Source of the DNA: Saccoglossus kowalevskii | Lineage: Eukaryota > Hemichordata > Enteropneusta > Harrimaniidae | Assembly (NCBI RefSeq): GCF_000003605.2 | Contig: NW_003143793.1 | Span: 640,435-663,665 of the forward strand | Length of the DNA stretch: 23,231 nucleotides | Direction: 5' to 3' | In this document: piece by piece, positions 2,049-23,231 of the stretch | How positions within the stretch are numbered: position 1 is the first letter of the stretch | How the letters are laid out: every line of letters starts with the position of its first letter | The notes under the pieces: model-generated | Database searches by the model: none | What the model was told of the DNA's origin: nothing | Seen by the model: only the letters and a program-made list of their open reading frames with translations | Made by a program: the position numbers and the translations under genes

Positions 2049-2088
2049 ATGTCGTTAACCACAGATGCCGCAAACAGGTTAACGACAT
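2049..2088. repeat. Hairpin with perfect 12-bp arms
   Basis: ATGTCGTTAACC (2049-2060) and GGTTAACGACAT (2077-2088) are exact reverse complements around a 16-nt loop. The sequence just outside repeats the theme, with CAGATGC in the loop and CATCTGCG at 2094-2102. Each arm carries a GTTAAC palindrome. It could be a foldback remnant or a paired protein-binding site. No RNA gene family is recognised. Confidence 0.8.
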
Positions 2089-2705
2089 TCATGACATCTG
2101 CGTTCTAACGTGTAATAATATTTCGAAAGTTGAATTTTGTCCATTTGAGTCATATTCAAAAATGCATCTTATCTTACTGTACCATGCTAGTATTTCGTTA
2201 CATTGATATCCATCTTCGTGTTCTAGAAAACATCATGCTCCGGGAATAACCATCCCAAAAAAAGAAAAGTACGAGCACGAGTTGTTTGATCAGTTTCATG
2301 ACATATACACAATGGTGGTAGGGAGTCTGGTTGATGTTTTCTATTATATTTAGATTTTCAGCAGAAACAGACAAAATATGGTGCAATCAACCAAACCTTG
2401 ATAAAGTAATTTGTCCCAGCATACAACAATGATTCGCAAAGTAGAAAACGCAGACGCTCTTTAATACGTATTATGGGGTTGACTGTCATTGCACCACATG
2501 TACAATGTGCTCATATGTATTAGTATCAGTGACCTCCTCCAATGACCCCGTAGTTAGATTATTTATGCTCAGAACAATGTGTACTAATTTCTTGTGTACA
2601 CATTTGGGGACCAAAACACAAATATTTCATTTCAATTAAAAGTAAGTGTCATAAACAAAATATAATTATCTTGATTTCTAACTGCGCACAGTGCACGTTT
2701 GAGCG

Positions 2706-2870
2706 TCTTCAGAGAAATCATTATGTTTATATAAGGCAAATGAAAAACATTGTGTTTCTCGGAATCCCGACTGTGAGTGATTTAATCCGTGTTTGATAGT
2801 CTTCCCAGAAAGCATGTTCACAGAGATATAAGGCAATTGAAAAACATTGTGTTTCCGGGAAACCGACAGT
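2706..2870 (+). repeat. Two-copy degenerate tandem duplication, offset 97 bp
   Basis: Copy 1 (about 2706-2774) and copy 2 (about 2800-2870) share a phrase starting TCTTC..AGAAA.CAT and a core ATATAAGGCAA-TGAAAAACATTGTGTTTC, then a CCGACTGT/CCGACAGT end. The core begins at 2729 and 2826. The copies fall in different minus-strand frames, so this is not a coding repeat. Confidence 0.85.
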
Positions 2871-3318
2871 CCCATATTTCCGTTTGTTTCAGATTGGTGG
2901 ATTGGGCACAACAGAAATAGCGCTAGCACCAGATTTACATTACGTTCGCAAAGGCACTCTAAATCTGTCTTCAAAAATTACATTTCACTTGAGAACAAGT
3001 AATTACAGTTATCAATTTGTTTCTGCTTGAGAATTGCTTGGCCAACGCGATTTGAATACTACATTTATAAACAAAGATAAAGATATACAGATTATTTTCG
3101 CTGACTTCATTGGTAGAGAAGCGTCAACATGTCGGCTTGTATATCACACCAAAAATAAAAAATCATCACTAAATGAACAAGTGCACTCATAAAAGTTTGA
3201 TGGAAATCAGTCAGTGTATTTTTCACGAAATCCCTGTTGCATTCTACAAACCCATGATCAAAATATTATATTAATTCAATTACTAGATATATTGTACCAC
3301 GATCTGCAAAAAAAACTA

Positions 3319-3332
3319 ACATTACGTAATGT
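3319..3332. promoter_or_regulatory. Perfect 14-bp palindrome with a bZIP-type core
   Basis: ACATTACGTAATGT equals its own reverse complement. ATTACGTAAT is the consensus of PAR-bZIP, NFIL3 and C/EBP-like dimers. Other TTACGTAA octamers in the window are at 13505, 16278 and 16778. Binding is inferred; no gene is adjacent. Confidence 0.45.
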
Positions 3333-3551
3333 GTAAACATATGTCCTGAAAGCAGACTCCCTCTCATGAAACACCTTAACTATACATTCAAACGGAAACA
3401 CGGCCTCGTAGATAAAAAAAAAATATGCCACAATTAATATGTGTTTTTTCATTTATTGTGTTAACGCGTGTGTCGAACCAATATAGGTATATTTCCACTA
3501 GTACGCAACCCATACAGTTTGTTCATTCAATTATTTAGTTATTAATGTGAC

Positions 3552-3734
3552 GGGTTAGACTTCTATTTCCTGCAAGAAATCTTTCAATAGACCTCACACA
3601 TGACAAAAAAGCATCTCTCTTATCGGTTTAATTATTTATTTATTTCATAATAACGTGTAACCCTTTTGCAATACAGGATTAGATTTTCATTTCCTGCAAG
3701 TAATCTTACAATGGATCCAATATGCATGGCAAAA
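3552..3734 (+). repeat. Two-copy degenerate duplication, offset 124 bp
   Basis: GGGTTAGAC..CTATTTCCTGCAAG (3552-3609) and GGATTAGAT..TCATTTCCTGCAAG (3676-3734) match at roughly three quarters of positions over about 59 nt. Both end near an A-rich run and both are preceded by AATTATTTA-like sequence. A weaker relative (TCCTGTAAGTAGTCATCTTG) lies at 4261-4280. This is consistent with an old interspersed or tandem repeat; nothing suggests coding. Confidence 0.65.
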
Positions 3735-4325
3735 TTGTAAAAAAAAAAAGATCAGATACGAGGAAAAGTTTCAAGCGCTACTGTCGTCTCACGCATGTAT
3801 AACACAATGTTTTTTACGGGGAATTCGAACACACGCTGTGTGACGACTATTGCTATCGAACATTTGCCGTAAAAATAAAACCGTTTAAATTGAAAAATAC
3901 TGACGCTATATTTCAGGTTCTCTGGTAACATCTTCCTAAAGGTAAAACCTCTTATGTAAATGAGAATCGTCTCGAGTGTGAATGTGTTCAACTCTTAATT
4001 GAATATGTTTCGTGAGCAGTCCCTATAAAATACGCAAATCTTATTATTCGAGTAGAATAAAAAAGTACGATGCTTTGAAATCTAGACGAAAACATATATA
4101 TATATACATTTTTTGATTAAGTCACCCCGAAATATTGTCTTAGACACAATTACAGGGACAAATGAGGCGCTACACATGGCTATAGCATATAATTATGACA
4201 TACGACGTACGCTATTATGAATACATACAATCAGTATTTGGCTTGATTTCGCCCACGGAATCCTGTAAGTAGTCATCTTGTACTGTAATCTCTGAGTTTA
4301 ACTTGACAAAACTGGATTTCACTAG

Positions 4326-4337
4326 ATAGCGCCCTCT
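4326..4337 (-). promoter_or_regulatory. CTCF-core-like AGAGGGCGCTAT
   Basis: ATAGCGCCCTCT on the plus strand reads AGAGGGCGCTAT on the minus strand. This matches the 3' half of the bilaterian CTCF consensus (AGRGGGCGCTA). The same 12-mer recurs at 20134-20145. The upstream half of the CTCF site is only weakly matched. Shared repeat ancestry is the alternative explanation. Confidence 0.3.
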
Positions 4338-4404
4338 AGACTCCTAAAAGCAACCAAGCGGCCATCTTTTTTCAATTGCAAGTGATTTAATGTCCAACGT
4401 AGCT

Positions 4405-4416
4405 ACATAGCTATGT
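4405..4416. repeat. Perfect 12-bp palindrome ACATAGCTATGT
   Basis: Exact self-complementary dodecamer, followed within 20 nt by another GCTATGT. It is short, with no assigned role. Confidence 0.6.
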
Positions 4417-4833
4417 TTTCAATGCTATGTCTTCAGTGTCCACATTTTGACCATTGTTGTTACAAATTGATACTAATGGCCCAAGAAATGTTCTATTAAA
4501 AACGAAATTCGGAGAAAAAATATCGATATAGTTACAGTTATTTCCGCTTTAATGTTGCTGTTGGAAACTGCATGTTGATGACCATATTTGACTATGATTT
4601 AATGCAAATGAAACTAATGCGCATGTGCAGTGATTGTTAGTGTACGTATCAAAATAAACAGTGCCTATTTCATTCAATGAATACATTTCTAGTTCATCAA
4701 CCATATTTACAAAATACATGTTCTAGTCAACATCGTATCTCTAACAGACCAAACAAAACAGTCTAAGTATCAAACGCAACATATAATGATGTTTGAATTG
4801 TACAACACAACAGTGTTCAATAGCCAATCATTA

Positions 4834-4927
4834 TGACCTTGGCATTCATATTTTGTAATTCAATTATCAAAGCTTTACTGGAAAGGTCAAGTAGGAACAT
4901 TTCGTGCTACTCGAACTAATGAGGTCA
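4834..4927. promoter_or_regulatory. Three nuclear-receptor half-sites in 94 nt
   Basis: CCAAGGTCA on the minus strand (4834-4842, the extended half-site of NR5A/ERR-type monomers), AAGGTCA (4883-4889) and AGGTCA (4922-4927) occur close together. Half-sites are short and degenerate, so this is weaker than the DR3/DR1 cluster. Confidence 0.3.
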
Positions 4928-7145
4928 ATAAATGAATTAGTGTGGTTTTAGAATAACTTAGTTGCTAAAATGTAGCGAAATTAACGATAGTTACTATATG
5001 ATGACAGCCATCTTGACTCATCGTCGATCATAACAAAGCACCATCCTTCAAGATTGTTTGAAATCAGCGAGAAATTTCAAATGATGATCCGTTTAATAAA
5101 ATCCCGTTCATACGAATACCTCATCATTCAATAAATCGGTAATTTAAAACGTTCAATGATTGTCAACTCGTATATTGTATTGCCATTTCTATACCATCTG
5201 TGGCACGCATTTATTATCCTAAATATACGTCCATACATAACACAACTCTCGTACAATGAGCAGATTTAATTGACACAAAGGGTGGATTATTTTCTGCTTC
5301 GGAGAGTATAGTCTATAAATAAAAAAAATATTATTTTATTGTACATTATATTTGGTTGTTTACCATATCCCATGTTCTAATTATAGGATCGCGATTTAAA
5401 TAAACGCAATCATCGGCGTTGTCAGAGTGGGGCTCAATTTACAAGCCTTCGTCGGCTGCCCTCTCAAGACACCGCTATGGAGACTGCTATACCAAAAGCG
5501 TAATTGAGATTTTCACGGGTGAACCAAGGTTCTGGCATATGTTATTACAATAATATTTCATTTCAATTCAGTGTTTTATTTGAGTGTACATATCGAGGAC
5601 ACGTCTGTACAAGCACTCAATATACAATGGTTCTCGTGGGGGGAAAAACCGTTTCTTCTTACAAATGTTAAACTGCAATGCAAAGTGCGAGACGAGACTT
5701 TTAGTACGAAAATCGCCCCGTTTACCTAGATAAATTGAATTGTAGTCATTCGCATACATCCGTACATCTGTAAATTGGATACATAATCCCCGGTGGCGGA
5801 AGACAATTTAATTCGGCTTTGAACAAAAACAAAGCACGGGAGTGAGTTCTCAGTTCACCAATCGCATCTCGGAGCGAACACCACATTAAATTACTCACCA
5901 CAGGCGGAATGATACAACAAAAATAAAGTCACAAAATTGCATAACCGAATCAGGAATTGTGGAGCTTAGAGAACCAACATCCCGTATTGTAATTATCTCA
6001 AACATCATGGAAATTCAATAGTAGGTATATATAATCCATTACGAATACGTCATGGGAAAATGCTTATGAACCTAAGACATACTAGTACTTCGCGCATAAT
6101 ACATCACCCCTAAGTTGTTCTATCCATGTCGTGTTCAGTCTGCTTGGCTGTCTGCGTGTTTTACCACTCCTTAGACATCAATTGCGTCAGACAAAAAAAA
6201 CATAACTTTGTGTACCTTTGATGACTAGAAGTGAAATCAACGAATTCCTTATCGCATATCGACAGACCTAATTAATTAATCCTTCTATGCTGTCAAGCAA
6301 AGTTACAATTTCTTCGATAAATTTGCATCATATTATTATCATTGCCTCACATTACATTGCTATGTCCATGGCATGACTATATGATATATAGCTGTCCTGT
6401 CGAGCGCATCTGATGCGATCTGGCATGGCGACTAATTTAGCAATTTAACGTTTCAGCGCGCCAGATTGCGGTAGTAAATCAAAGTCCCATTACGCGTATC
6501 TTCGCCATTAATTAGTTGAAATAAATATATATTTTAATCCATTCCATTGTCAACGGACAAGATTGTGTTTACTGGACGATGACAACCATATATACTGTAT
6601 ACTGTTAATGCGTCGTGTTTTTTACGCAAACAAGTTTTATCCTAAAACAATTATATATACACTTGTACTAGATTTCCTTTAAATAATACATAATATATAT
6701 CTGTGAACTATTGGGATGGTATTTGAAGTATTATTCTTTTTACATGAGTTTTCTGTGGATGTTATTTAACGTTAAATTGGACATTCTATTTCATGTATAA
6801 CATGCATATTATCAACGCATTGTTACTAATCACAAAGAAAAATGATTCAGGCCGGTTTATACGAAGCAAAACATGACGGAGAATAAATCATGACTTGCTA
6901 GACTTATGTCTTTATTTTCAGTGGGTAACCTTCATGTTTAATATCTCATATCTCCTAAATATGCCACCATAATCTAATTATGCTAATTTTCAGAACTTTG
7001 CTATACCCCACGCGTTATATCAACTCATATCTATCACTATCCTATTCTTCAGGATGTTGCAAATACGCATAGTTAATGAGCCAATATTAACAGCGGGACC
7101 AGACCATTATGAAGAGAGAGCATGATTCGTGGAACACAGTCTGCT

Positions 7146-7161
7146 TAACGGGTTAACGGGT
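7146..7161 (+). repeat. TTAACGGG direct doublet
   Basis: The octamer TTAACGGG occurs twice head to tail. Two copies are too few to call an array; the AACGG core resembles a Myb-type half-site. Confidence 0.7.
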
Positions 7162-7238
7162 ATTTTGGAGTGTGGAGCGATGTCCTCACAATCACCTTTA
7201 ATAACTGGAAAATGAATTAAATATTTACGGTTTTAAGA

Positions 7239-7439
7239 ATTCCATCATAATTGTTTCGATTAAGACTGGCGTCCCGTGTTGCGAACCATATACAAACATT
7301 GAACAACGCACTAAGCGATGTTTAGATTGTTCACTTAAAGTATTCCATCAATATCGTTTCTGTTAACACCGATGTCATGTGTCGCCGAACGTATACACAC
7401 ATTGAAAGACGCATATGCGATGTTTAAAAGGTTCACTTA
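7239..7439 (+). repeat. Two-copy tandem duplication, period 103 bp
   Basis: Copy 1 (7239-7337) and copy 2 (7342-7439) both run from ATTCCATCA to GTTCACTTA. They share blocks such as ACATTGAA and GCGATGTTTA in the same order. Identity is about three quarters with very few indels, so it is one ancestral tandem duplication that has since diverged. No open frame is preserved in both copies. Confidence 0.88.
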
Positions 7440-7519
7440 TAAGTTGAGACACTCTGAGTTTATTCACTTTAAATGTATTATATCCGCGTAGTACTCCACT
7501 TTTGCGTTTGAAGTCATTA

Positions 7520-7532
7520 CCCCCCCCCCCCC
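7520..7532 (+). repeat. Poly-C tract, 13 nt
   Basis: A run of 13 C, conspicuous in AT-rich DNA. It is a mononucleotide tract with no assignable role and is prone to length error in sequencing. Confidence 0.95.
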
Positions 7533-9150
7533 ATTAGATAATGGGAAAATAATTTGCCGCATTACATAGTACACGTTGACTGATAGTAACTTTGTTTATT
7601 AAAAACACAATTTGGGAGAAATAATATCTCCAGAACCAATCTTCAAATTGACATGACTAGAGGACTCTTTAATATATCACGAATTGTAGATAAATTATAC
7701 AATTACCATTATCATTAACTCTAAAAGAGGTACTTCATGATGAAGTGTCTTGAAAAAGTCGTGATTATAATTCCAGACGGTGTAATCAATCTCCAATTGT
7801 TCATTAAGGGGGTTCCTATAAATGACCGTGACTCATCGAACTATTGCATGGATACCTGCGTACAGCCCGGAACCTGGATACTAAACACACTCGACAGTGA
7901 AAAATCACGTCTGTTGAAGTAATAAAATGAATGGCGTATGTATTTATGTGCTTCTTAAAAATCGAGTCACATCATCGTTTGTATGAATTCAAACTCCGCT
8001 CACGACAGGCGATCTAATTGAATTGGTGGGTATAATACCAAATAGTTCGATAGGACAATATTACGTTCGTACTTAATTGTATAGTATTTATTTAACCGAT
8101 TACAAAGATTTGGCTTGTATTTTCTGTTCAAATCCGCAGAATGATACATTGCGGTGTAAGAGACGATTATTCTAGACAGTGTGTACTACTAAAAATCATT
8201 AATTATACAGCGAAGGCATAAAATACGCAGAAATGTAATCGTTTTTTATTTTCTTAGCGGGAAATGTGATTACGTTCAATATTTATTCATTCTAGATTGA
8301 TTTCACTCCGACGAAGGACAATATCTTTCCACAGCATGAAATGGAGATCATATTTATTTAACACGGATGCTTGATGCTGCTCATAATGGAGTGTGTTCCT
8401 TTCAATAAGTTGCGAGTAATTACATCTCCTATTACCGATGTTCTTTCGATAATCAGGTCAAGTAGTTAGAAAGCTTATTATGAGCAAATAGTTGAGTTGG
8501 ATCACAACCGATACTGTTCACACAATGTGACGTGTGCTTCCTTGTCACTATTTTTCAAATCTGATACTGATATGATAACACGGTAATTATCTATATATCT
8601 ATAAAATGATTCTGGCAGCGTATTCGCTGAATAATAAACAACAGGGAGTAGGGTACAACAATACAATGATGGCGGAAGTACATACCCCTTTCGGCCGTGA
8701 CTCCTTTATGTCTATATATATAATACGCATTGATTTGCCTCATGCATTTTCATACATTCATAATCCGCATGATTACCGGCTGTCGTTTTGCATCCTTGGA
8801 ATTGTGTGACACATCGATTTTAATTCGGTACGACGGCATACCTACTTCCCTCTGCGTGGGTCGCCCCCACACACGTATTAAAATTACGCAGGTGCGTAAT
8901 ATGTAGATGGCTAATGGTGTTATAAGATTTTCATCGCTAAATGTGGTAACAGTCTGTCTCTTTGAACAGGCTACTTCACTTCACTAAAAGGTAGAAACAT
9001 GATTAGGTTTTACGTAGAGTGAACAAACTAAAACACCGTCGGGTGAAATGTACCGACTAATTGGCTATTAATATGGGTGAAAATGAGAAACCTTATGGTT
9101 TTACAATTAAACTCCCGAAGACCCCAATTTCAGTAATCGGATTATCGATT
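7533..9150. other. Non-coding stretch between duplication and minisatellite
   Basis: Only 61-67-codon frames (7737-7922 and 8606-8809, plus strand) occur, neither resembling a known protein. Two short GC-rich hairpins near 8.86-8.90 kb stand out. Confidence 0.6.
8883..8900. repeat. Short hairpin with 7-bp arms, ATTACGC/GCGTAAT
   Basis: ATTACGC and GCGTAAT flank the loop AGGT. About 20 nt upstream lies a second GC-rich hairpin, GTGGG/CCCAC (about 8857-8871). Both are short and could be chance, although CG-containing arms are less expected in this composition. Confidence 0.6.
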
Positions 9151-9151
9151 T

Positions 9152-9605
9152 CAATTCAACGTCAACTGACTAGGTCAAATCATTAATTTCATCAATCGAT
9201 CAGCGATAAACATTCAATGTCAACAAGCTGTGCCAAGCGTCAATATCCTTGATCAAGTTAATGATAACCATTTAACGTCCACTGACTGGGTCATAACATT
9301 AATTTTGTCGATGAACTTGGCAATAAACATCCAACGTCAATACACTATCATGTAAATTTTATTAATCGACTAACGTTAAACATTTTTTTTTGAATAGTCT
9401 TTTTTTATCAAACGAATAAAGTAACGTTAAACAATTAATGTCACCTGACTAGGTCAAAACATCATGTCATCAATCGAGTAACGACACCCATTCAATGTCA
9501 ACTAACTAGGCCAACGAATCTCAACTAAGGTTAAATATTCAGTGTCATCTGGCTAGGTGAAAGCATCGATTTCATCAACTGACAAACGATATCCATTCAA
9601 GAAGA
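9152..9605 (+). repeat. Degenerate minisatellite, period about 58 bp, about eight units
   Basis: Units begin with a CATTCAACGTCA-like phrase at about 9152, 9211, 9269, 9328, 9381, 9432, 9489 and 9536, with a partial unit at 9594. Spacings are 59, 58, 59, 53, 51, 57, 47 and 58 nt. The recurring order is CATTCAAYGTCA, then CTGACTAGGTCAAA, then CATTAATTTCATCAATCGA, then TAACGATAAA. Units differ by many substitutions and small indels, and the fifth is disrupted by T-runs, so the array is old. Several units carry an AGGTCA nuclear-receptor half-site (9172-9177, 9451-9456). No coding frame follows the period. Confidence 0.85.
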
Positions 9606-9609
9606 AAAG

Positions 9610-11845
9610 CGTATAATAATGAGACGTTAATCTATATACTTGTACTTAAAGTCTCAAAAACGTTTTGTTTAAAAATAGTAGATCTTAAAGACCAACGATT
9701 GCCCTAAGGACACAATTAACTTTCCGACATGTGTGTGGTCATGGTCAATAACACAAATATAAGTTAATGCATCCACAGAGCCTAGAGTTTATTGTGTATT
9801 CAAGTACCGACAACTGACATACAGAGTCAATTATCAGTATTCGGTCTAGTTAAAAACAAGTGAAAGTAAAAATCGGATTCTGAAACTCATAATTTATATA
9901 GTATGTCTAAATGTACACTGTTATTGCAGCTTCAATCAAGCGGAACTAGAAGAAGAAAAAAACTGCACGTCACGTTGAAGCACTCTTCAATAACGGGGAT
10001 ATATTTTAGTCAATTAAATTGAGACGACTAGAGTAATATTCATGTCAGTAAATAACGATTAACTTAAAGAATAAATCAGTGCAGTATTGCCACAAGTAGG
10101 GCATGCTGTAATTACCACGCAGCCTCTGTAAGTAGTAACTTACGATGAGATATTCAGAGGTCCCATTAAGTCTACGTAATGGCAAATCTTGAATAAAAAC
10201 ACTGTATGTTTAACATGGTTCTAGGGTCCTATCAAAACGTGTCAAATATTCAAATTACGCAATTAACTTGCCGATATGGTATAACGTTTAATAAGATGCG
10301 TGATAAAAAAGTACGTTATATCTAACAGAATATAGTCGTACACATAGTATTGTTATTAAATATACAATTGCGCATGTATTATGTCATGAATTTATAATGC
10401 ATTGCTTATTATAGTTTAAAATATTTAAACATTCTTGTAAGTCACGCACTTACAGAAGATGATAAATAATTTATTCAGCTCTATAGAATGACTGGGGTGT
10501 TTTATTTGTCTGTATTTAATCTCTTATCGCCCGCATCGGTGTATTCGTTCATTGCATTGTGTAATAATATCAATATTGAGCCAAATCAATGTTGTAAAAA
10601 GGCGCTGTGGTTATTTACGAGTGTTTAATATTTAAAACATTTTATATACCCCTCCTTGGCTCGCATTATTTGTTTTTCATCGATATTGCCTTTTATATCA
10701 CTGAGTGCAAGATAACAGCATTGTTCAATGCACGTCGAGTATGAACTGACAAGCGTTCAACACCAGTGAATGGCAGCTATTTAATGAAGCGATACCATGT
10801 ATAAATAACATTTTGCGTGTTGAAGTCAAAACTGTATTTTACACGCGTGTGAAGGCCATTGGAAACAACTGAACAATTGGGTTATCTACAATAGAATATA
10901 AAACAGCCCCAAAATGACGGTATGTGCGTGGGCATTGACATTTAAATTCCGATTCAGAGCATTTGTATGTACACGTAGTGCCTCATTGGTTTGAGCTTTA
11001 TACTACGCCGACTGCAGTAACCAACATATGCTCAATTCAATGTTCTCACCAAGAACGACATGCGCACTTGTGTTGACATGAACGACGAATATAACGCACT
11101 CATTCTTTGGCTGTCATAAACAAATCAGACACTGTCTATTATCGAAACGTGCAGTGCAACAGAAACTTAAAAGTATGTTTTTTATGCATAGCCGGTTACA
11201 GTCAATAATGGAATATTGACGTTATTGCCTGCTTTGTATGATCAACGTGAAAAAGAAAGGCGACGAGTTGATTTTATTTCCGTACATATAAATATGTTCA
11301 TTAAAATAGTTCAGATAAATCAATGTGCCAGGATTTCTACGGATGTTAACATCTTCAGTTGAGCTCTTTGGTTATTACTTGTAATCTCTTCCGATGGTGA
11401 CAGAAATAACGATAGCTTGGCTTCATGCATGAATAGATTTTGCAAACTTGTTTTTTTCAGCATATGTACATATTAAAATATTATTACGCAAATTTTCTCT
11501 GTTTACTCAATCATTTGAAATACAAGTTGTTATGATGATAGGTTATTTCTTATATATGTATTTCTGTGTATTTAATTTGTAAAACAAATAGGTCACTGGG
11601 TGAATAACATTGGATGAATAATGCACGGTTAAAAAATAATGAGACTCTACTCGAATCGAACAAATGTGACCATCACTTGTGTTAAGTGTGAGTTGATTGA
11701 TGAGTTGCAATGGCCTGCGAACAACTGGGTTGATATGTTTTATAATTCGTGCCTGGTATTCGTTTTTTTTTCTTTGTAAATATGGATGGTAATGATGTGT
11801 GTTCTCGCATCAACTACTGCCATTTCAAGTCAATTATATCCCAGA
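9610..11845. other. Non-coding stretch
   Basis: No frame above 60 codons is open here. The stretch is AT-rich, with GTAAGT-AGTA-ACTTAC (10128-10143) as a small hairpin. Nothing else is assignable. Confidence 0.6.
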
Positions 11846-11849
11846 CGAC

Positions 11850-11975
11850 TGACCTTTATCATGTAATATTAACAATAGGTCAATGAGGTCACCGCGTTTT
11901 TATAAATTATCTCACTGTTTCGTTTAGAAGAGTTTGGAGCTGTCGATGTCCTGATCATTCCATGAACTTTGACCT
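11850..11975. promoter_or_regulatory. Cluster of nuclear-receptor-type elements (half-site, DR3, DR1)
   Basis: Within 126 nt there is an inverted half-site TGACCT (11850-11855), a perfect direct repeat AGGTCA-ATG-AGGTCA (11877-11891; DR3, the spacing known for VDR-type/RXR dimers), and on the minus strand AGGTCA-A-AGTTCA (11963-11975; DR1, the spacing used by HNF4 and RXR dimers). The cluster lies about 430-550 nt beyond the receptor stop codon. It could be an enhancer for the receptor or an unseen gene. The motifs are seen; the function is inferred. Confidence 0.5.
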
Positions 11976-12196
11976 GTTTCTATGAGAGATTCGCATACGT
12001 CATAGAGTGTGTTCAACGACACCAATTACTCTTGTCAGTGTGTCATGTACTTGTGTGCTCTTTAAAGAATATACCCTGGGAAATTAAAGTAGAAGTACGT
12101 ATCTTAATAGGTTGGACGAACATCAGTCACAGTCGGTTCATCCGTTCTATACAATGATTACCCGGGAAATACGAAAAATTGGGGATGTCTTCTTTC

Positions 12197-12202
12197 TTTA
12201 TT
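12197..12202 (-). terminator. Candidate polyadenylation signal of the receptor mRNA
   Basis: TTTATT on the plus strand reads AATAAA on the minus strand, about 200 nt beyond the receptor stop codon. It is the first canonical hexamer I found in that interval and would give a 3' UTR of roughly 210-230 nt. AATAAA is frequent in AT-rich DNA, so this is a positional candidate only. Confidence 0.45.
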
Positions 12203-12400
12203 CGAACAACTGAGCCAATTACCGCTTTTCTTCCTCGTCACAAACTGCCCTCGGTTGTTCGGTATATGTACGTGAAGAGAGCACTGACGTATATAAGTAA
12301 CATTTTAAAGAAAAGGGGGCATTGGCCTTTATAGTCGTGACGCTGGTTGGAAATACACACTAATTGACAGCATCCATGTTCTTCGTTACACATGCAGACA

Positions 12401-13387
12401 TTAAGTATGTGGATGCATTTGAGATTCATTATCAAATTTGGCACTTGTGGCGTCTTTTGCAAACAGTGCCTTATACCCGGTGCGTATTTGTTTGTTTCTC
12501 AGGCCGTATATTATAGGGTTGACACACGAATTACAGAACGCCATCAGAACGAACAGTTGAAACACTTGGCTGGCATGGTAATGGGTGAAATATCCCAGCG
12601 AAAAAAGCAGATAGCACACCTGGTCTGGCGCCCAACACGCTGTAAATATCATGACAACCAGAAACAGAGTTTTCACCACTTTCTGGCGAGCTCTCAGCAA
12701 TGACAGCGCAGGGCTGTTGCGCGATGTGTTCTTTTTCAGTAAAATGGCAGCTTGTTTCTTCATCGATTTAAAGATTCTTGTATACACTACGATCATGGTG
12801 GTGACGGGTAGAAAAAAAGTAACTATCAGGTTAAAAACACCGTATATAGACTCGAAACTGGTGTCGGTGCGTATGATCTCACACTGTCGCGTGTTCTCTG
12901 CATTGGTGTTGATGAAGAGTATGAACACATTGAGTAATAGGGCAAAGACCCAGACAAGCGCAACGACGAGCTTAGTGCGCTTTCTCGTAAAATATCGGTT
13001 ATACCGTCCGGGGTGCATAAGAGCGTAGTATCGCTCAATGGTTACAGCAACGAGATTGAACACTGATGCTTTTATAGATACCCAGAGTAAAAATTTAGAC
13101 CAGATAAATCGACAATACAGTTCCCCAATCAGTCCTGGAGAGATGCTTGTAGGCACTGGCAACGGCACGATAACCACCGATGTTATCAAATCAGCTGTAG
13201 CTAAGCTCACCAGAAAATGGTTCGTTATGGTCCGCAGTTTTGGAAATCTGCCAAACGCCGCACATACTAAACTGTTACCTATGATGCCCGTCACTGCGAA
13301 AACACATTGACATACCTGTAACCAGCTCCATGGTCTAATATCGACATTGATCGGGTTAAACGACGTGGTGTTATTATACATTGCCAT
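12401..13387 (-). CDS. Class A (rhodopsin-family) G-protein-coupled receptor, orphan, peptide-receptor-like, intronless
   Basis: This is a plasma-membrane seven-helix receptor that should couple an extracellular ligand to heterotrimeric G proteins. The 328 residues fit a complete class A receptor with short tails. The N-terminus has overlapping glycosylation sequons at N5 and N6. Approximate helices are TM1 23-45 (GN at 37-38), TM2 55-80 (LATAD, D66), TM3 93-117, TM4 139-159 (W146), TM5 181-205 (P194), TM6 236-264 (CWAP 251-254) and TM7 274-296 (NPIIY 290-294). C92 and C169 are the expected TM3-loop 2 disulfide pair. The DRY triad is ERY (118-120), a common variant. The basic helix 8 after NPIIY has no palmitoylatable cysteine. 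An in-frame TGA at 13397-13399 fixes this ATG unless an upstream exon exists; the nearby second Met (residue 3) is an alternative. No frameshift or missing core residue is seen. The pattern resembles the broad galanin/somatostatin/allatostatin-like peptide-receptor set, but ligand and subfamily are not resolvable by eye. Confidence 0.96.
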   Translation of the reverse strand: MAMYNNTTSFNPINVDIRPWSWLQVCQCVFAVTGIIGNSLVCAAFGRFPKLRTITNHFLVSLATADLITSVVIVPLPVPTSISPGLIGELYCRFIWSKFLLWVSIKASVFNLVAVTIERYYALMHPGRYNRYFTRKRTKLVVALVWVFALLLNVFILFINTNAENTRQCEIIRTDTSFESIYGVFNLIVTFFLPVTTMIVVYTRIFKSMKKQAAILLKKNTSRNSPALSLLRARQKVVKTLFLVVMIFTACWAPDQVCYLLFSLGYFTHYHASQVFQLFVLMAFCNSCVNPIIYGLRNKQIRTGYKALFAKDATSAKFDNESQMHPHT

Positions 13388-13400
13388 AGTCCGCGTTCAT
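13374..13400 (-). promoter_or_regulatory. Overlapping upstream ORF (8 codons) at the receptor start
   Basis: An ATG 13 nt upstream of the receptor ATG opens an 8-codon frame (MNADYGNV) that stops at TAA inside the receptor coding sequence. It is out of frame with the receptor, and its ATGA also supplies the in-frame TGA that bounds the receptor ORF. If transcription starts upstream of 13400, scanning ribosomes would meet this ATG first. In other genes, overlapping uORFs usually lower translation of the main ORF. The sequence shows the geometry; the effect is inferred. Confidence 0.55.
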
Positions 13401-13438
13401 AAATCGTTCGCGTTACTGCTAGTCAATGGATACACGCT

Positions 13439-13454
13439 GGGTATAAATATATGC
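13439..13454 (-). promoter_or_regulatory. TATA-like AT stretch upstream of the receptor gene
   Basis: An AT-rich block containing TATATTTATA on the minus strand (TATAAATA on the plus strand) lies about 55 nt upstream of the receptor ATG. A TATA box there would place transcription start near 13410-13420 and give a very short leader that still includes the upstream ATG at 13400. The plus-strand reading matches the TATA consensus better than the minus-strand reading, so direction is uncertain. In AT-rich DNA such matches are common. Confidence 0.35.
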
Positions 13455-13479
13455 TGTTGAGCTCAATCCATGTGCAAAC

Positions 13480-13557
13480 CCACAGTGAAGCCGTTCACAA
13501 TACTTTACGTAACAGGCTTTAGTGAGACAATTCACGTATCCATGGCGACAGAACTGC
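13480..13557 (+). repeat. Proximal copy of a near-identical inverted repeat in the receptor promoter region
   Basis: This 78-nt block begins with ACAGTGAAGCCGTTCACAAT-type sequence and ends at GAACTGC. It matches the reverse complement of 16223-16310 without substitution: 45 nt (13480-13524) plus 33 nt (13525-13557), separated in the distal copy by 10 extra nt. It lies 93-170 nt upstream of the receptor ATG. Inside are a perfect TTACGTAA palindrome (13505-13512) and an RFX X-box-like GTATCCATGGCGAC (13536-13549; 11 of 14 to the palindromic consensus). A 40-codon plus-strand frame (13470-13592) crosses it, but the indel breaks that frame in the other copy, which argues against coding. Confidence 0.92.
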
Positions 13558-13979
13558 TGCAATCAATCAAGAAATCTATAAAATACTGCTGATTAATGAT
13601 TTTTAAGGTCGGTGAAGCCGGTTCAATAGCGTCAGTCATGCATCGGATTGTCTTAAAGCGGTTTGGTAATTAGGTGAGTTACCTACACTCCCGACGATTC
13701 GTGACGAAGCGGCAAATGCCGAATGTGAACATCAGGAAATGGTTGTCTCCCCGTGGTGGAAAATATATCAATATGTTACTTCTGTTTTCAGAAAAAGCTA
13801 TTCGTTTTTTATCTGATTAATTGTGGAATCACGTGGGCACAGCTGGCGATCTCATTAGTGTATACACGCAGCAGTTAGTCCGTACGCGGTATGTTATCTG
13901 CTCCAGTCCAACATATTGACCTGGCTGTACGCACAGTTTCGAATCCTGTTCAGATTTTGTTTTAAAAATGATTTTTATT

Positions 13980-13995
13980 GAAAGAGTACTCTTTC
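13980..13995. repeat. Perfect 16-bp palindrome about 600 bp upstream of the receptor
   Basis: GAAAGAGTACTCTTTC is an exact palindrome with no spacer. It lies 593-608 nt upstream of the receptor ATG. It may be a dimeric protein-binding site or chance; no known factor consensus is matched confidently. Confidence 0.6.
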
Positions 13996-16222
13996 TTTCA
14001 TCCAATAAAGATATCTGTAAAAATAGATATTTATGATAAGAATTTATCGATCACGTGGTATCCACCGTCGATATCAAAGAATTTTATCAAAAGCATGTAT
14101 TATTATCAGAGAATGATGCAACCTCTACTACCTTGTATCGGAGAAAGATTTTTGGATACTTGAGAATTTTACAATGTATCTAGATTATGGGTTAATAGAC
14201 GAGAAGTATATCCTCCAGGTTATTATGGTATAGCTTTCATCGAACATAAATAGGATGACGTCAAAGATCCAGTCAGAATACAGATTGGCTGGCGTATGAA
14301 ATATTACAATTTACAGACTACTTAAAACACCATCTGGGAGTGTTTAACTATTGAAATTGACACTATTTTTAACTTGCTAATTTGAATATCATTTTCGCTA
14401 CACACAGTATTTATGGGATTTCTAATATTTGCACGTATTTTAGAAAGTTAAAGCGGTGCCCTGTTTACGTAGAGTATGTTGTTTGCACGGGTTTTATGGA
14501 AATGTAATATAGTCAGTTCCGAAATTAACTATGGGAATTCTTTTATGTTTATGAATTCATTACATTATTGAATTCATTTTGTTGTTTGCACTTTTAAATA
14601 TCAAATAGAACTTCATGTCCTCTAAGTGGATCATTCGACAAAACCAAAAATTGCGATCCATTCTATGGTTGTTCATCAAAAGCTGAAAGGTTATTGTTTC
14701 CATGGCCATTATACATGAATATTCCAAACAAAGTCTTGTCGATATGTTTGAAAATGGTTGTATTATACCATGCAATGTGATCTCGAGGTGCCGTTCATGA
14801 TTTGCCAGTAATGGCACCATGTTCAATGGTTCATATACACACAGTTTAAGAAAGAATTGTACATATGCACTATCACGTGATTGTGTACAAATAAAAAAAA
14901 TATCAGTTTGTATCATTTCGCTATTACGGAGAAAATATATGTCGTTCGATAATGGAACAGTGACAACTTCGTGTATTTAATTAAATGAGCCAAATAAAAT
15001 AACGGGGATACACACACAAACTCAAAAGAAAGTCATAGACAAAGTCGACAGTGATTATTCTTTGACGACACATCCTTGTCAATACAATATTATACCGACC
15101 GTACTGTTAATAATCGTCCAAATATTTATGCAGTAAATAAGCAATAAATCAAAATACTGTGCGCTGCTCGATATGTTGTACTGTCGAGCTGAATCAATTT
15201 CCGGTGTATTTAGAAATGATTTGTCTGAACGTGAAAATGAATGAAATATGAGTATGTGTATATAATCGCAATTTGTGTACTTTGTCACATAAAACATAAT
15301 TATAAAATATGACATTTAAAGCACACACGGTAACCGTATTGTACTGACACTTTAGTGAACACGGTTTTGTTAATAAAATGAGATAGAAACTCTATATTTT
15401 TTTACTTTGCTTGTTATGAAAATATGCCTCTTACTCTTACAGTGAACTCATTATACATCATCTCGAAATAAGTTACTTCGTGCTAGAGTGTATAATCATA
15501 ATGTCCGTCGCATCGTGCGCGGATACGTCATAATTGGTCCTTATGTGTACAACTTTTTTGTAATATTTTAATGCGATATAAAATATATTAGTTGCCTGTA
15601 TATCTTGGCTGAGGTTATCTTTAAAGCAAATGTACGATTAATAGTATAAGAATGTTTATCCTTTCATTTTCAGATTTACAAAATGTATGATGAGTACAAT
15701 CTGGTCTCAGGATTGAAGTGCGCCAACGCACGATATGTCGGATCACACGATGTGAGTTTTCATAGCCGCACCTGGAAAATACCCACAATCCTATGCGCTC
15801 TGTACTAACATACCCTACATGGTTGGTAAATAATTGTCGAATATTACTAGTACACAGGAGTGTTTCGAGATGATGCATACATTCCGTAGACATATCTTTT
15901 GTGCTTTTGTTTTTATTGTTTTCTGTTCTCCAAATAGCTGAATATTATGGCTTGTTGCGATGACAGAGTAGTACTGATTTTTATCAACAATATGCCAAAT
16001 TTAGTTCATAACTATGTTACAGTAAATAATTCGTTGGTGACTATGAAAATCCTTACTCCTGGTTTTGTCTTGAATGGATGAAAATGACAGCAACTTTATA
16101 ATCTTTATATCTATACTAAATTTCAATATTCTGGTCATATATATTGCAAAATAACCTCCTTGAGAATGCAATAGAGTCCGACATACTTGAATGCATCTCT
16201 GTCAGAGGTTTTTGAGTCTGTG
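13996..16222. other. Non-coding stretch upstream of the receptor
   Basis: This is the loop between the two arms of the inverted pair. It contains a CRE and unrecognised minus-strand frames of 118 codons (14560-14916) and 90 codons (15621-15893) without known domains. A distal promoter or enhancer role is possible but not shown. Confidence 0.55.
14256..14263. promoter_or_regulatory. Consensus CRE octamer upstream of the receptor gene
   Basis: Third exact TGACGTCA, about 870 nt upstream of the receptor ATG. In this position it could serve as a CREB/ATF enhancer element for the receptor. This rests on motif and position alone. Confidence 0.4.
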
Positions 16223-16310
16223 GCAGTTCTGTCGCCATGGATACGTGAATTGTCTGGCGAGTTAACACTAAAGCCTGTTACGTAAAGTATTGTGAACGGC
16301 TTCACTGTGG
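16223..16310 (-). repeat. Distal copy of the inverted repeat, with a 10-nt insertion
   Basis: This is the reverse-complement partner of 13480-13557, about 2.7 kb further from the receptor. The 33-nt part is 16223-16255, the 45-nt part is 16266-16310, and 16256-16265 holds 10 nt absent from the other copy. No substitutions separate the copies over the 78 shared nt. Similarity stops abruptly on both sides, apart from weak resemblance in the next 15-20 nt. A 70-codon minus-strand frame (16135-16347) spans it but resembles nothing I know. Confidence 0.92.
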
Positions 16311-17587
16311 TTTCCACATTCTGGATATGGTCTCCCTTCGTGCACACTCATTCATAGGGCTGCATACAAGTTGTTTTATAAATGCTGTTCATTTCAGAAC
16401 TCATTACAGACATTTACAACTTCTATTTAACACGTCAACATTTTCATCCTAGGCTCTCGGCACCGATGTTGGTGGTAACACACTGATAGCTGATGTGATA
16501 TCGCTGGCAATTTGTCTTCGTTATATCCTCTTTCTGTGATATGATGTAGTCAGATGGCTGAGCGCACGGAAAACATATTTGTAAATTAGGAAAATAAATT
16601 TGAAAAAAAAAAGATCAATACAAATTGAGAAAGCGCATACATTGGCCACATAGAGCGTTAAAGTGTTATCTCACTCTGCTCCTCGCACGGTATAGTATCC
16701 CCCATGTAGCGTTACATCGTGTTAATTACTAGCTCATGTTCTATTGCTATAACACATGATCGAGAATAAAGAATCCATTACGTAACTCTGGACGTTGGGG
16801 CTGAAGTAAATAATCAGCTGGACTATACATTTTGCCAACTGAATCAACATCCAGTCATTGTAGCATACACTACCCCTGGAATAGCAGGGTCAAATACTGC
16901 ATCGAATCAGGAGTAGAACACTTTGATTAATTGACAAGGTATTGCAATACATATCATTATAGTAACAAAGTAGCTCTGTGTCAATATACCATGTATCTAC
17001 TAACACTAACGTACGTCAGTAGTAATCTTCTTCATTGTGTAGTTTGAGTTCTTAACTCCCGATTCAATCTTAACCGATCTAGTAGTTAAAAACATGCAAA
17101 TTAGGGGGGACATGATTAAGAAGACTTGCTATAAAAAAATAATATACATATTTATGCGTTACTATATCAGAAAAGGCAACATACTACGTCAGTAATTGAA
17201 GACGACAGAGAGCACAACGGTTACGCAATAATACACACTGGTAAATAAATCTACACCACATGAGGTCCGTGACTATATATAATCACGATCGTTATGATAC
17301 GCCATAGCAATCGTCTGTATATTTATGGTACTCGCCTAGCCGCTAATCACCCCCACATCAATGCATCTCATTTTATTGTGGCTTCAGAAGCAACAAAATT
17401 ATAACGATTCTTCGTGCACATGTTTTTGCCTGTAGGGATTATGCTACACTTAATCACACTTCTGGGGCTTGATGGTTGCAAGTAAAGGCTAAATACTTAC
17501 CCTTATAAAACGTTTGTGGCGTCCATGTTGTTTGAATGTCAACATAATATTAATCTTTTTATACATATGTCACTATATCTCGATAGG
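16311..17587. other. Non-coding stretch
   Basis: No convincing frame. It has one TTACGTAA octamer (16778-16785) and an A-run near 16.60 kb. Nothing else is assignable. Confidence 0.6.
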
Positions 17588-18245
17588 TTACGGCGTGCCG
17601 TAATTTTGTGGTATTGTACAGGGGGTATCGGCATCCTACTTTATTAGGAAATACGAATTCCAAATATGGAATGATTACTCGGTATTTCCAAATAACAGAC
17701 ATTAAATGGCATGGCAAACGGCTGGATCAGGAAGATTCAAAGATTTGACTGAATTGTATAGAATAAGATCAATACCTATGTGGCCTATTAATTGGAAGCT
17801 GACAGTATATCAATGGAGATTTATTTCCACTTTTTTGTATTCATATTTTTATTTTTGGTTTTGGGCTAAGATGATTTACTTTCATTTTTTTAAAGCAAAA
17901 TTGCGATGTGCATACATCAACTGTGGTGCTGGAATAGTAGTACTGATTCAGTTGGATACGCCCCGATATAGATTATCTATGGCGTCGAGTCTGTATACTA
18001 ATATATCGAGTTGGAATTCGCTTCAGGACTCAAATTGAATTATTATTTAGAAATATGTGTTAACATTTATTTTTGTTAATTTCTTTTTCTACAATCATTA
18101 TTGTTGTCTATGTTGATTACGGTTGTGGTTCAATGTATTACTAACAATTCGCCACATATCATGACGAACCAGTTAGCCACTGAAACGTATCAATCAATCA
18201 AACATATTAAATATCCTGAATATTTGGTTATTTGGCACGCCGTAA
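17588..18245. mobile_element. Possible small element bounded by 12-bp inverted repeats
   Basis: TTACGGCGTGCC (17588-17599) and its exact reverse complement GGCACGCCGTAA (18234-18245) bound about 658 nt. The left end is itself a palindrome (TTACGGC-GT-GCCGTAA, 17588-17603), and CCAAATAAC recurs in subterminal positions (17688-17696 and inverted at 18227-18235). GC-rich 12-mers matching by chance are unlikely in such AT-rich DNA. Inside lie a foldback (17647-17689) and a 110-codon plus-strand frame (17706-18038) with an aromatic-rich hydrophobic middle. That frame has no recognisable transposase motif. No target-site duplication is evident, so a non-autonomous element is tentative. Confidence 0.35.
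17647..17689. repeat. Hairpin with 8-bp outer and 5-bp inner arms
   Basis: GGAAATAC (17647-17654) pairs with GTATTTCC (17682-17689), and inside it ATTCC pairs with GGAAT around AAATAT. It is a compact foldback just inside the left end of the putative element. Confidence 0.7.
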
Positions 18246-18716
18246 TATTTCCTGTTTTATTATTTACATTGAAGTGCTTGCCATAATTTCTATTTTAGGT
18301 ACGATATAATTGTATTTTGTTTTTATTTACATAGATTCGAATTTACGGACCAAACACAATAATGACGATGGTTTACCACACACGTACTATTATATATATT
18401 GTATTAGCTATAATTTAAAAATAAATTGCATGAAATGTACTGTATTTCTCAATTTTCAAAAAATATTTTCAATAGTTCCTGTACATACTTCCTGTTAGTT
18501 ATTAAAGTTAAAGTTAATCATGTTACAGGAAAACCCTAGCTCGTAAACAAAATTATAATTTAATTACTGGAACAGGATATGTTGTTCTCACAGGAAACAA
18601 GTTATTGTCAAAGGTAAAACTGAAGGTCGATAATCAAGAATATATGTACAAAACACATTTCTGCCAGTAATTACATAGAAAACACTATATTTTTTCAAAA
18701 TGGAATTATTTTGTCC

Positions 18717-18824
18717 ATGTTTATTTCATTTATGCACGAAATGTGTGATAATGTATTATTGTGATGATAATATAGCAGGAAAACGTATGCATATCCCACG
18801 ATAATACATAAATGAAATAAACAT
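18717..18824. repeat. Foldback element with 18-bp perfect arms plus an inner 11-bp arm
   Basis: ATGTTTATTTCATTTATG (18717-18734) and CATAAATGAAATAAACAT (18807-18824) are exact complements. Further pairing continues between GTATTATTGTG (18753-18763) and CACGATAATAC (18797-18807) with one mismatch. The right arm is continuous, whereas the left arm is split by 18 nt (18735-18752). The left side therefore gained a short insertion, or the right side lost one. It resembles a foldback/MITE remnant. A structured RNA is less likely, as no conserved loop is known. Confidence 0.85.
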
Positions 18825-19146
18825 ATGAAATAAAGTGTTAGAACAGATCAACTTTATTTTAGTAAACTTGTGCATTCACCAAATTATTATTGAAATTATA
18901 ATATTAAATTTGTTGGATAATTGCAAAATGTATCAAAGAACTACCGCGACGAGCTCGACGACGTTACTAGTACTGTGGGGACAGCGCTAAATAGGAGATG
19001 TGGCAAGCCTTATTATGAGAATAAAAATATGAATATAAAATGTACTAGAAAGGCATTTTATTTAACAAATTAACAGTTAAAAGATACAATGTCACACCAC
19101 AATGTAAATCAAAACATTTTGAATTAGACACATTTTTGTTTCACTT

Positions 19147-19354
19147 TAAAAGTTTCAACGGGGGACGCGCTTTAAATGTTTATTTTAACGCATGTTCAAA
19201 GTCACACATTTCCCAAAAGTGTTTCCATGAGAGACACATATTGATTAGTGCCACAACACTTAAAGAGTTTTCCACGCGTAACACATTTCCAGTATTGAAA
19301 GGTGATTGTATTAGGGACACACTTCAAAATGTGTTCCCAAGAAAAACGTGATTT
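19147..19354 (+). repeat. Four degenerate copies of a roughly 27-nt motif
   Basis: AAAAGTGTTTCC-N4-GAGACACATTT-like units occur at about 19147-19174, 19215-19240, 19262-19289 and 19326-19354, spaced 47-68 nt. The motif is partly self-complementary (AAANTGTGT...ACACANTTT), and the last unit forms GGGACACA..TGTGTTCCC. A 71-codon frame passes through but has no known domain. Subterminal repeats of a decayed transposon, or clustered binding sites, would both fit. Confidence 0.45.
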
Positions 19355-20130
19355 AAAAAATCATTATCAGTAGATTGTGCATTACAAACAAGTGTACGTT
19401 ACACACGAGTGTATGCACCCGAAATAAATAAAATGTTGCATTTGGCGGCCAAGCACTTTTAATTATTACACAGTCCTAACAAACAAATTATGTTCTCAAG
19501 CAAATAATAATGGCGAAATAGAAAGAATTATAAGGTAAGTTTGAAAAAACATTGTATATAATTGTTGTCAACAATAATAAACATTGACAAATTATTTACT
19601 CTAAGCGCAACAAAGGGATCCTTTTCATCTTGATTATTATTTATAAATTTCAATGACAGTTGAATACAACCACCCTAATTAACAAGCATAGTGTACATTG
19701 GCGTCATTTGAACAATGTTATTCAACTGAAAAAAGGAAAACTTTCGTAGTATTCATAAGTAATGTCTTTATTGCGCTGAGAGCGTTGGAAACTAAGTTAA
19801 ATTATTTAACCATCAACCAGAATGCATATACCAATGTTTATCGTGGACACTATTGTTTAGGAAAGATATTTCACATAACACATTTTTGTTAAGTTTTAGT
19901 TTTCATATTTGTAAGGTTATTTAAAGACATTTACAGTGATATCGTGTCGTATTAACGAGTGATTTTGGTATTTTGATGAAACAATCAATTTACAATACGG
20001 TATAAATCATTGGATAGACTGTCCCTTTTTTTTAATTACATTTGCCAATGACAATAATGCACAGAAATTACTTTATAAATTACACGGCTTTAAACCAGTC
20101 TCGTGATGGCATCCAATACTTCAATGATCA

Positions 20131-20425
20131 ACCATAGCGCCCTCTCCAGCTCAGAGATGAAATCTTTGTATTGAATCTTGGTGTAAGCGATAGTTTAAGA
20201 TTTTCCTACGACCTGGTCAGTTATATCTATGTTCAATACATATACGCAGAGAATAGTCTTTATATTTGACGTACCATTGTGATTAATAGAGCTTTTTGTG
20301 TTTTCTGTTATATTTCTTTTAATATGTGATTCTTGTAATCGTGTTTTTATCAAATGTCAATAATATTGAAATCACCCAATACCATAGTGCCCCTATATTC
20401 GAGATAGATTCTTTCAATAAACCTG
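20131..20425 (+). repeat. Diverged direct repeat, offset 250 bp
   Basis: ACCATAGCGCCCTCT..TC.GAGATGA..TCTTT (20131-20173) and ACCATAGTGCCCC..TTCGAGATAGATTCTTT (20381-20423) agree at about 70% over about 43 nt. ATATCTATGTTCAATA, which follows copy 1 at 20224-20239, recurs at about 21235-21250. This looks like an old interspersed repeat of unknown family. Confidence 0.45.
20134..20145 (-). promoter_or_regulatory. CTCF-core-like AGAGGGCGCTAT, second copy
   Basis: Identical 12-mer to 4326-4337 and in the same orientation. Here it sits inside a diverged repeat whose partner about 250 bp downstream reads GTGCCCC instead, which favours repeat descent over a conserved insulator site. Confidence 0.3.
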
Positions 20426-20838
20426 ATCAATTTCTACCTTCCAATGATCCTTGCTAGGGGCGATAGCAGTTCCCTATTGAAGTAGATTTAAAGTTAAGAA
20501 TTGTAGCTATAATGTACGTAGTTGGTGTGATTGAATATATTCATATTTAAGACGGTGGAAACAAATGGGAATACGTGACGTGTAAGTAACGTAGTTTCCA
20601 AGTTTTTTTCATCTCACGTTGAGTTGTGTGTTATCATGTCAATTGAGGACACGCACACGATCTACAAACATTGCATAAAAAAAAAGATGATAAAGCCTTA
20701 GAATCACAAGAGGTCATTATTGTAAACAAAACATGTTTGGTTAGTATTAGTAAATTTTATATAAATAAAAAAATACTTTCCAATAACTTTTTATGACAAA
20801 ATGTGGGGTAAATGTAGGAGACGTTCACGGAAGCATTT

Positions 20839-20852
20839 GCCCTCAAGAGGGC
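20839..20852. repeat. Short inverted repeat GCCCTCAAGAGGGC
   Basis: Six-base arms around AA. It repeats the GCCCTC theme found at 1889-1894, 4332-4337, 5459-5464 and 20140-20145. Too short to name. Confidence 0.6.
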
Positions 20853-21787
20853 GTGATTTATCGGAATGTGTTATTACCTTATATCGCTTTGAGTGTTTTC
20901 TTTCGAATGCTGACATTGTGTTTGAAATTGACATGCTACAAACACGTCAGACACGGTGTATACCGTGTACCTTGTTCATAAAAAATAAATGTTTGTATTA
21001 TTCATTGATATCTCAGCGGAAACGTCAGTTTTAATCATGTCATGTGTCCACATGCTACATGACCGCACTGCCAAAACGTACATCAAGGATGCACGTGGTC
21101 TTTGGTTAATATGAATGCAGGACATTTAAAAAACAGCTCTGCAGTTTTAAGTTATTGTTTGAAAGTAATATGGGTAACATTGTTCCTTTGGCTTCAATTC
21201 AAATGGACTATGTCCAGTACCATATGCTCTATAATATCTATGTTCAATAAGCTGAACCAGATGAAATAGCCCTCGATAAACTTAGTTAATTGTACATTCA
21301 AAAGTGAAAAACATCCCTGTAATCAAACAACTTAGTATGTAATGCATACACATCTAAAGAAAAGGCGGCATTAAGTTTAATTCAAGCGGATGCAAGTTAT
21401 AAAATCAGACCACAGCATCTTAATTCAAGCATTTTAGAACTTCGAATTACAACACCGTATAACATTGTTTTCAATACATGTATAAAGACAATGTTGTCAT
21501 TCTCCTATATTCAGACTAAGATAACTCACGTTCAGAATTCATGTCCTGTGTAATGTCTACTACTAACTCATCTAGATAAATCGTGTACAGATAATTGAAT
21601 AACTTCTTTACAACTGTGATGGCTGTCGAATTTACGTGACTGCTATATGTACCTTCCCGGCATTGCAAAAACACTAGGACAAAATGCAGTTTGAAATTAA
21701 TAAAAGGTTTAGAGGTCGTCCGAACACATACGTGCTCGGTCACTGGGAACATAGCAAAACCATTGGATTTGTGCGGAACCCCGAAAA

Positions 21788-21871
21788 CATTTAGGTGTGC
21801 GAATACGAAATTAAATCTGTAATTTCACACAACGATGACTGCTTATCTGGAATACAAAGAATCGATGGATT
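21788..21871 (+). repeat. Interspersed repeat, copy A
   Basis: The stretch contains AAATCTGTAATTTCACAC followed by TTATCTGGAATACAAAG and CGATGGATT. It aligns with 23156-23231 from end to end at about three quarters identity, and with 23056-23100 over its first half. Confidence 0.65.
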
Positions 21872-22357
21872 TATCAGAATGTCAAAAGGGCACAAACTCT
21901 CGGAATGTGTGATCTAATAATCCGATTTATGTCGGAAAAGCTGGATAAGCAATTGGTGCGGCAGTGATTTCGACAGATTTAAGTATAGGCAGATTTTTTT
22001 ATTTCTCGGACGAAAATAACGTTACATGAATGTAAAGACTAGTGGTTCAAACCAATGAGCGGATAACACGTCACTCTTAATAATTGATAATTTCTCGCTC
22101 GTGGGCCATCAAATCATTTTTTCTTGGGGCAATAACTATTATATAACTAACTTTTTATATAATTATATATTCCTTGTCCGTTAACAATAAATCGATATCT
22201 AAGCTGTGTCATTCGATTTTGATGTCTGAAGGCTTGTCGCATGTGATTAGGCAAATGTAAGTGGGCTTTTATAAAGATCTTAACTTGTCTAAAATCGACC
22301 CCTTAATTCGAGATATATACATTGTATAAGATTATACAAATCTAACAACAATGGAGC

Positions 22358-22396
22358 AGTTATTGATATTTATTGATATAGTTATTGATATTTATT
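22358..22396 (+). repeat. 22-bp tandem repeat, 1.8 copies
   Basis: AGTTATTGATATTTATTGATAT is followed at once by AGTTATTGATATTTATT. It is a local AT-rich duplication about 220 bp left of the (ATTT)n array. Confidence 0.85.
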
Positions 22397-22615
22397 TTAT
22401 GATTTTTAATATTAATTAGATTTATAAAAAACATCAATAATTGATTGATTGTCCCATGAGACACCATATTTAAAAATTTAAATTATCTTCTTTATCATAC
22501 AACATAGGAATAAATAGATTTATTTGTTTGGATGCTCTAATCTACTTTTCGCTGTTTCAGCTGAATAAATCGTTGGCAGAAACGCCTTTAATATTTAGAT
22601 TCAAGGATAACTAAT

Positions 22616-22741
<126 letters not shown>

Positions 22742-23055
22742 CGAAAAGAAAACTAGTTTGAAGTCTCTCACTACTGCCAAGAACCTTCACTCTATGAAAG
22801 GAGTTTTTTGTATAAATGTCAAATGTCAATGTATATGTATGTTGTTGAAACCATTTCTTCTATGAATTAATTTAGGATTGCATAAACTATTCTTCATGAA
22901 AACACAAATCGGACTTAACAATTGTTGTCAATTAGGAAACATTTCCAGCCTATCGACCAACAGAGTAATACATAACTACTGGAAACGAGCTACTTCACAA
23001 CTACGGTAGCTGTGGATATTAGAATTTAGCAACCCTACTTTCACGGCATGGCAAA

Positions 23056-23231
23056 TTTAAAGCACGCGATCGAAATCCAATTTGTAATTTCCACACCGTC
23101 AACACCAGTTCCACGAATGAGAACATATCATAATAATTGACGGTCGTCGGTTAAACATCTTAGGACGTAGGTAAATTAGTAATTTCACACCGTATTATTT
23201 GATTATTTGAAATACTAAATACCGATGGATT
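23056..23231 (+). repeat. Interspersed repeat, copies B and C, cut by the window edge
   Basis: Copy B (23056-23100) has CGAAATCCAATTTGTAATTTCCACACCG. Copy C (23156-23231) has AAATTAGTAATTTCACACCG followed by TTATTTGAAATACTAAAT and CGATGGATT, where the window ends. B and C are offset by about 103 nt, so this may be the beginning of a tandem array extending right. Copy A is 1.3 kb to the left. Confidence 0.6.

Follow-up and report, generated by a model that had tools for sequence, protein, structure and literature searches.

How does a short block of DNA just upstream of a receptor gene come to be repeated in inverted orientation 2.7 kb away, without a single substitution? We have studied such a pair in a stretch of 23,231 nucleotides from the hemichordate Saccoglossus kowalevskii, which we call the window. 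The pair is real: DNA from upstream of the receptor has been duplicated locally in inverted orientation, two copies are known, and the duplication is probably young. We ask below how it is built, how unusual it is in this genome, and which of the processes known to generate inverted copies accounts for it best.

A single gene is recognized in the window. It encodes a rhodopsin-type (class A) GPCR of 328 amino acids, has no introns and occupies 12404..13387 on the minus strand, with its stop codon at 12401-12403. It matches the Pfam family 7tm_1 with E 2e-49, and its best PDB matches are the beta-1 adrenergic and histamine H2 receptors. The stretches 1-12403 and 13400-23231 were scanned against Pfam in six frames without a match at E 0.1. 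When open reading frames were scanned singly, two of the seven other long ones gave weak matches below the Pfam cut-offs, to Sedlin_N (1928-2206, E 0.0076) and to DUF6996 (19049-19351, E 0.0015), neither of them between the arms of the pair. The ATG of the receptor is at 13387 and the left arm starts at a distance of 93 nt on its upstream side, so that the distance given in a first-pass annotation of this DNA, which placed the block 93-170 nt upstream of the start codon, is correct. The left arm is probably the original sequence, and from its place, 93-170 nt ahead of the start codon in a gene that has a single exon, we infer that it is probably also part of the proximal promoter of the receptor.

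The left arm (13480..13557, minus strand, 78 nt) was aligned with the reverse complement of the right arm (16223..16310, plus strand, 88 nt), and the two agree over 78 nt with no substitutions. The single gap in the 78-column alignment corresponds to 10 nt, GGCGAGTTAA (16256..16265, plus strand), that are present in the right arm only, by insertion there or by deletion in the left arm. It is because of this stretch that the repeat search divides the pair into two blocks, 13477-13524/16266-16313 (48 nt, 98% alike) and 13525-13557/16223-16255 (33 nt, 100% alike). Self-BLAST returns a match of 13470-13557 to 16319-16223 over 98 columns, with 1 mismatch, 2 gap openings and E 2.7e-29, far beyond chance. 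Repeat search, alignment and self-BLAST all bear out the inverted pair first noted here, about 2.7 kb apart, free of substitutions and with one 10-nt indel.

The two ends of the arms behave differently. On the outer side the BLAST match runs 9-10 nt beyond the 78-nt block, to 13470 in the left arm and to 16319 in the right, an extension that taken alone has no significance (164 of 2000 random pairs score equally well). The inner flanks are unrelated and the edge is sharp, with 1076 of 2000 random pairs scoring equally well. A search of the neighborhood for the source of the extra 10 nt gave no convincing template; TGGCGA can pair with TCGCCA in the same arm, a match too short for a claim.

Is a pair of this kind exceptional? 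The first-pass annotation had put all other repeat pairs in the window at 70-80% alike, which is slightly too low, since identity reaches 90% in the pair 2729/2826 and 83% in the pair 3552/3676, and perfect microsatellites also occur. The pure microsatellites of the window are (TTA)n at 1670-1740 (71 nt) and (TTTA)n at 22616-22741 (126 nt). A direct repeat of 85 nt, 80% alike, at 9152-9236 and 9432-9514 lies in a diverged short array.

As background we used ten hand-picked loci (L035-L044, 76.9 kb not N), of which L035 lies beside the nearest paralogue of the receptor, and used self-BLAST to seek inverted pairs of 40 nt or more, with 90% identity or more and a separation of 200 nt or more. The counts from the self-BLAST that returned the arms and the motif counts given below exclude L001, L002 and L005, which belong to the window's own stretch. 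Such pairs occurred in three of the ten loci (L040, L043 and L044), 91-95% alike over 42-150 nt, and none was substitution-free. These pairs may be multi-copy repeats. The direct repeats of L040 came to 67 rows, and L041 contains a direct pair of 98 nt that is 99% alike. Because less perfect inverted pairs are present in three of the ten other loci, the type of the pair is not exceptional; it stands out by having no substitutions in 78 nt, not by its kind.

Is the block found elsewhere in the genome? When the 78 nt were used to search the assembly (572,110,611 bases, 4830 contigs), at least two matches were obtained, and both of those listed are the two arms. The receptor itself has at least 64 matches at E<=1e-20 in its own genome, a number that includes the receptor and counts some pieces and frames with stops, so that not all are separate genes. 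The block was absent from all 29 other receptor loci, each scanned with 1.5 kb of flanking sequence at both ends of the match, where chance alignments of 10-14 nt were obtained (best E 2.2). The 34 further receptor matches, which lie outside these loci, were covered by the 78-nt genome search alone. Copies upstream of paralogous receptors, one of the possibilities raised at the outset, were found at none of the 29 loci.

On the plus strand of the same contig, 19.6 kb beyond the right arm on its right, is the nearest paralogue, which is 46% identical and divergently oriented. Elsewhere in the genome three intronless receptor paralogues, 38-43% identical, form a tandem cluster on one strand with a spacing of 17-19 kb (G000:C1945, near 53891, 72847 and 90319). 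Another stretch of the window, 17552-17681 (130 nt), is 80% identical to positions 1124-1251 of locus L022, about 250-380 nt upstream of a class A receptor match there; this stretch is probably a dispersed repeat.

Three readings of the pair can be ranked, and we favor a templated insertion, followed by an inversion with staggered breaks and then by a regulatory module that has been kept. According to the first, to which we assign an even chance of being correct, the right arm arose by templated inverted insertion, through a local accident of repair or replication. Repair or replication at about 16220 would have involved DNA synthesis templated by the GPCR upstream region 13480-13557, and the resulting copy of roughly 80 nt would have been inserted in inverted orientation at a distance of 2.7 kb, where CTGTGG may have provided homology at the junction. 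The 10-nt indel could have arisen after the copying or as part of the event. The formation of short templated inverted copies is an established kind of mutation.

The right arm is an inverted copy of nearby DNA, and the matches listed in the genome search, at least two, are both arms, as required of a templated insertion. It is also bracketed by a direct repeat of CTGTGG, the first copy at 16218..16223 and the second at its outer edge at 16305..16310, both on the plus strand. This repeat is 6 nt long, compared with 2 nt at the left arm. A 6-nt direct repeat arises by chance in about 2% of 20000 random placements per arm, which is about 0.04 for both arms. The bracketing hints that the right arm is the inserted copy and the receptor upstream region the donor; it is the sole hint of direction, and a weak one. 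The CTGTGG would also fit a junction microhomology, which is possible. From features such as these we infer the mechanism and the direction of copying. The right arm would then most likely be a passenger, lacking a function.

Templated inverted insertions generated by template switching have been described for yeast and human cells (PMC8421209, PMC11724301), and short-scale template-switch copies for great ape genomes (PMC7954356). In the passages on which we draw, templates were sought within 100 bp (PMC8421209) and local foldbacks were mostly 5-34 bp (PMC11724301), and a copy of 80 nt from a distance of 2.7 kb is thus beyond what these passages cover. The pair resembles the MMBIR-linked templated insertions treated there in that a short segment of unique DNA recurs nearby as an inverted copy, with microhomology a possibility at the junction. 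It differs in that the template is 2.7 kb off, that about 80 nt have been copied, and that junction homology is suggested at one arm alone.

The main rival, drawn from the second of two known mutation classes that yield such an arrangement, is that a 2.7-kb inversion by staggered breaks left the inverted duplicates, which we consider rather unlikely. Inversion by staggered breaks leaves inverted duplicates of single-copy DNA at both ends, and the stated mark of the process in Drosophila mojavensis is originally single-copy DNA, inverted, that flanks a segment and has unrelated flanks (PMC3355041). The genome search, with at least two matches and both arms listed, agrees with this, and it is possible that a past inversion created the arms. 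Arms that themselves promote inversion of the segment, an option named in the first-pass annotation, are hypothetical. The arms are like the duplicates of D. mojavensis inversions 2h and 2q in being inverted, of originally single-copy DNA and placed on either side of a segment. However, staggered breaks do not predict that the right arm alone should be bracketed by a direct repeat, and the duplicates of inversion 2q, about 1 and 4.3 kb, are far longer than the arms (PMC3355041), which measure about 80 nt around a segment of 2.7 kb that has no sign of flipping.

The order of the segment was assessed from the composition of 400-nt flanks. In the present order the GC differences are 0.013 and 0.073 and the CpG ratio differences 0.12 and 0.32, as against 0.110 and 0.025 (GC) and 0.50 and 0.30 (CpG ratio) in the flipped order. 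The present order fits slightly better, and the composition, within noise, leans weakly toward its being the original one. The test is a weak one because adjacent windows and windows 2.7 kb distant differ about equally in CpG ratio (0.29 and 0.28, respectively).

Could the arms instead be a regulatory module? A duplicated cis-regulatory module, its identity kept by selection or gene conversion, might serve the GPCR together with a second transcript or the neighboring paralogue. We regard this as possible but unlikely. The left arm has the position of a proximal promoter, the nearest paralogue is divergently oriented on the side of the right arm, and TTACGTAA, which we take to be a bZIP-type site, is kept in both arms. 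The latter occurs at 3322, 13505, 16278 and 16778 of the window, four times in 23 kb with two of the four in the arms, where base composition predicts 0.84 and where 187 kb of other loci contain five. Against this, the block is missing from the 29 other receptor loci, and no gene is recognized to the right of the right arm in the window.

The remaining motifs are less telling. The first-pass annotation stated that both arms keep a palindrome and an RFX-like site, and both are indeed present. The RFX-like site is off at 3 of 14 positions from a palindromic consensus, and it is not distinctive, because 187 kb of other loci contain 24 sites that match as well (up to 3 mismatches). Moreover, a copied block keeps its motifs automatically, and motifs common to both arms would follow from the copying itself. 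TATA-like words are found at 13442 (plus), 16377 (plus) and 16380 (minus), the first and last of which point toward their arm from different distances; since about 0.4 such words are expected per 100 nt, they neither show nor exclude a shared promoter. A pair of convergent first exons from ATGGCGACAGAACTGC, common to both arms, was considered and rejected, as the left frame closes after 16 codons and no further exon was found.

Nor does the identity of the arms call for a module. It had been taken to mean that the pair is young, gene-converted or constrained, and of these young or gene-converted fits. Neither constraint nor gene conversion is needed, because 81 sites free of substitutions are compatible, at the 95% level, with a divergence as high as 3.6%. 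A more specific version, in which the right arm would be a recently copied working promoter module, forming a new divergent promoter that faces the paralogue 19.6 kb to the right and held identical by selection or gene conversion, seems to us very unlikely. If the right arm were active, it would be a clean natural example of a promoter module copied in one step by a repair accident, for which the donor and the copy are both available. As a passenger it would simply be a further local inverted duplicate, of use mainly as a marker of the frequency of short template-switch copies in this genome.

An assembly artefact, in which one copy has been misplaced in a gapped scaffold, receives slightly less credence still. 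Runs of N, which stand for gaps or for withheld sequence, make up the 10 kb that precede the window on its left and 9717 of the next 10000 bases on its right, and five of the ten other sampled loci contain more than 1000 N. However, the arms differ by the 10-nt indel and in their outer bases, and their flanks are unrelated, so that they are not simply one sequence placed twice.

TIR DNA transposons and MITEs also have inverted arms, and a target-site duplication together with a transposase or further genomic copies would be expected of a TIR element. The arms are of TIR-like length and flank an interval of 2.7 kb (13558..16222), and could in principle be the terminal inverted repeats of a DNA transposon, single-copy or fossil, with this interval as its body, a reading to which we give the lowest probability of all: the best target-site duplication at the boundaries tried was 3 nt, below the null median of 4 from 2000 random places, no transposase domain is indicated by Pfam at E 0.1, and the genome search (at least two matches) listed the arms and no other copy of the ends. 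Two 5-nt words common to the flanks lie at unequal distances from the arms. Together with the absence of the block from the 29 receptor loci and of any Pfam (13400-23231) or Rfam match, these results disfavor both a mobile-element family, including the fragment of a mobile element proposed in the first-pass annotation, and a module shared by paralogues.

The interval also gave no match in the Rfam and tRNA searches. Fold z-scores were -0.44, -1.37, -0.31 and -2.05, the last belonging to the right arm on the minus strand, which is mildly stable; with folds that are mostly unremarkable and no Rfam or tRNA match, a structured RNA gene was rejected. An exon-like stretch at 15674-15751 on the plus strand, IYKMYDEYNLVSGLKCANARYVGSHD, lies between the arms and is open over 78 nt; its splice signals, 3′ and 5′, look good by eye, and it matched no solved structure.

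The ratio of observed to expected CpG ranges from 0.25 to 1.33 across L035-L044 and is 1.11 in the window. Such a mosaic between loci is as expected for patchy germline methylation.
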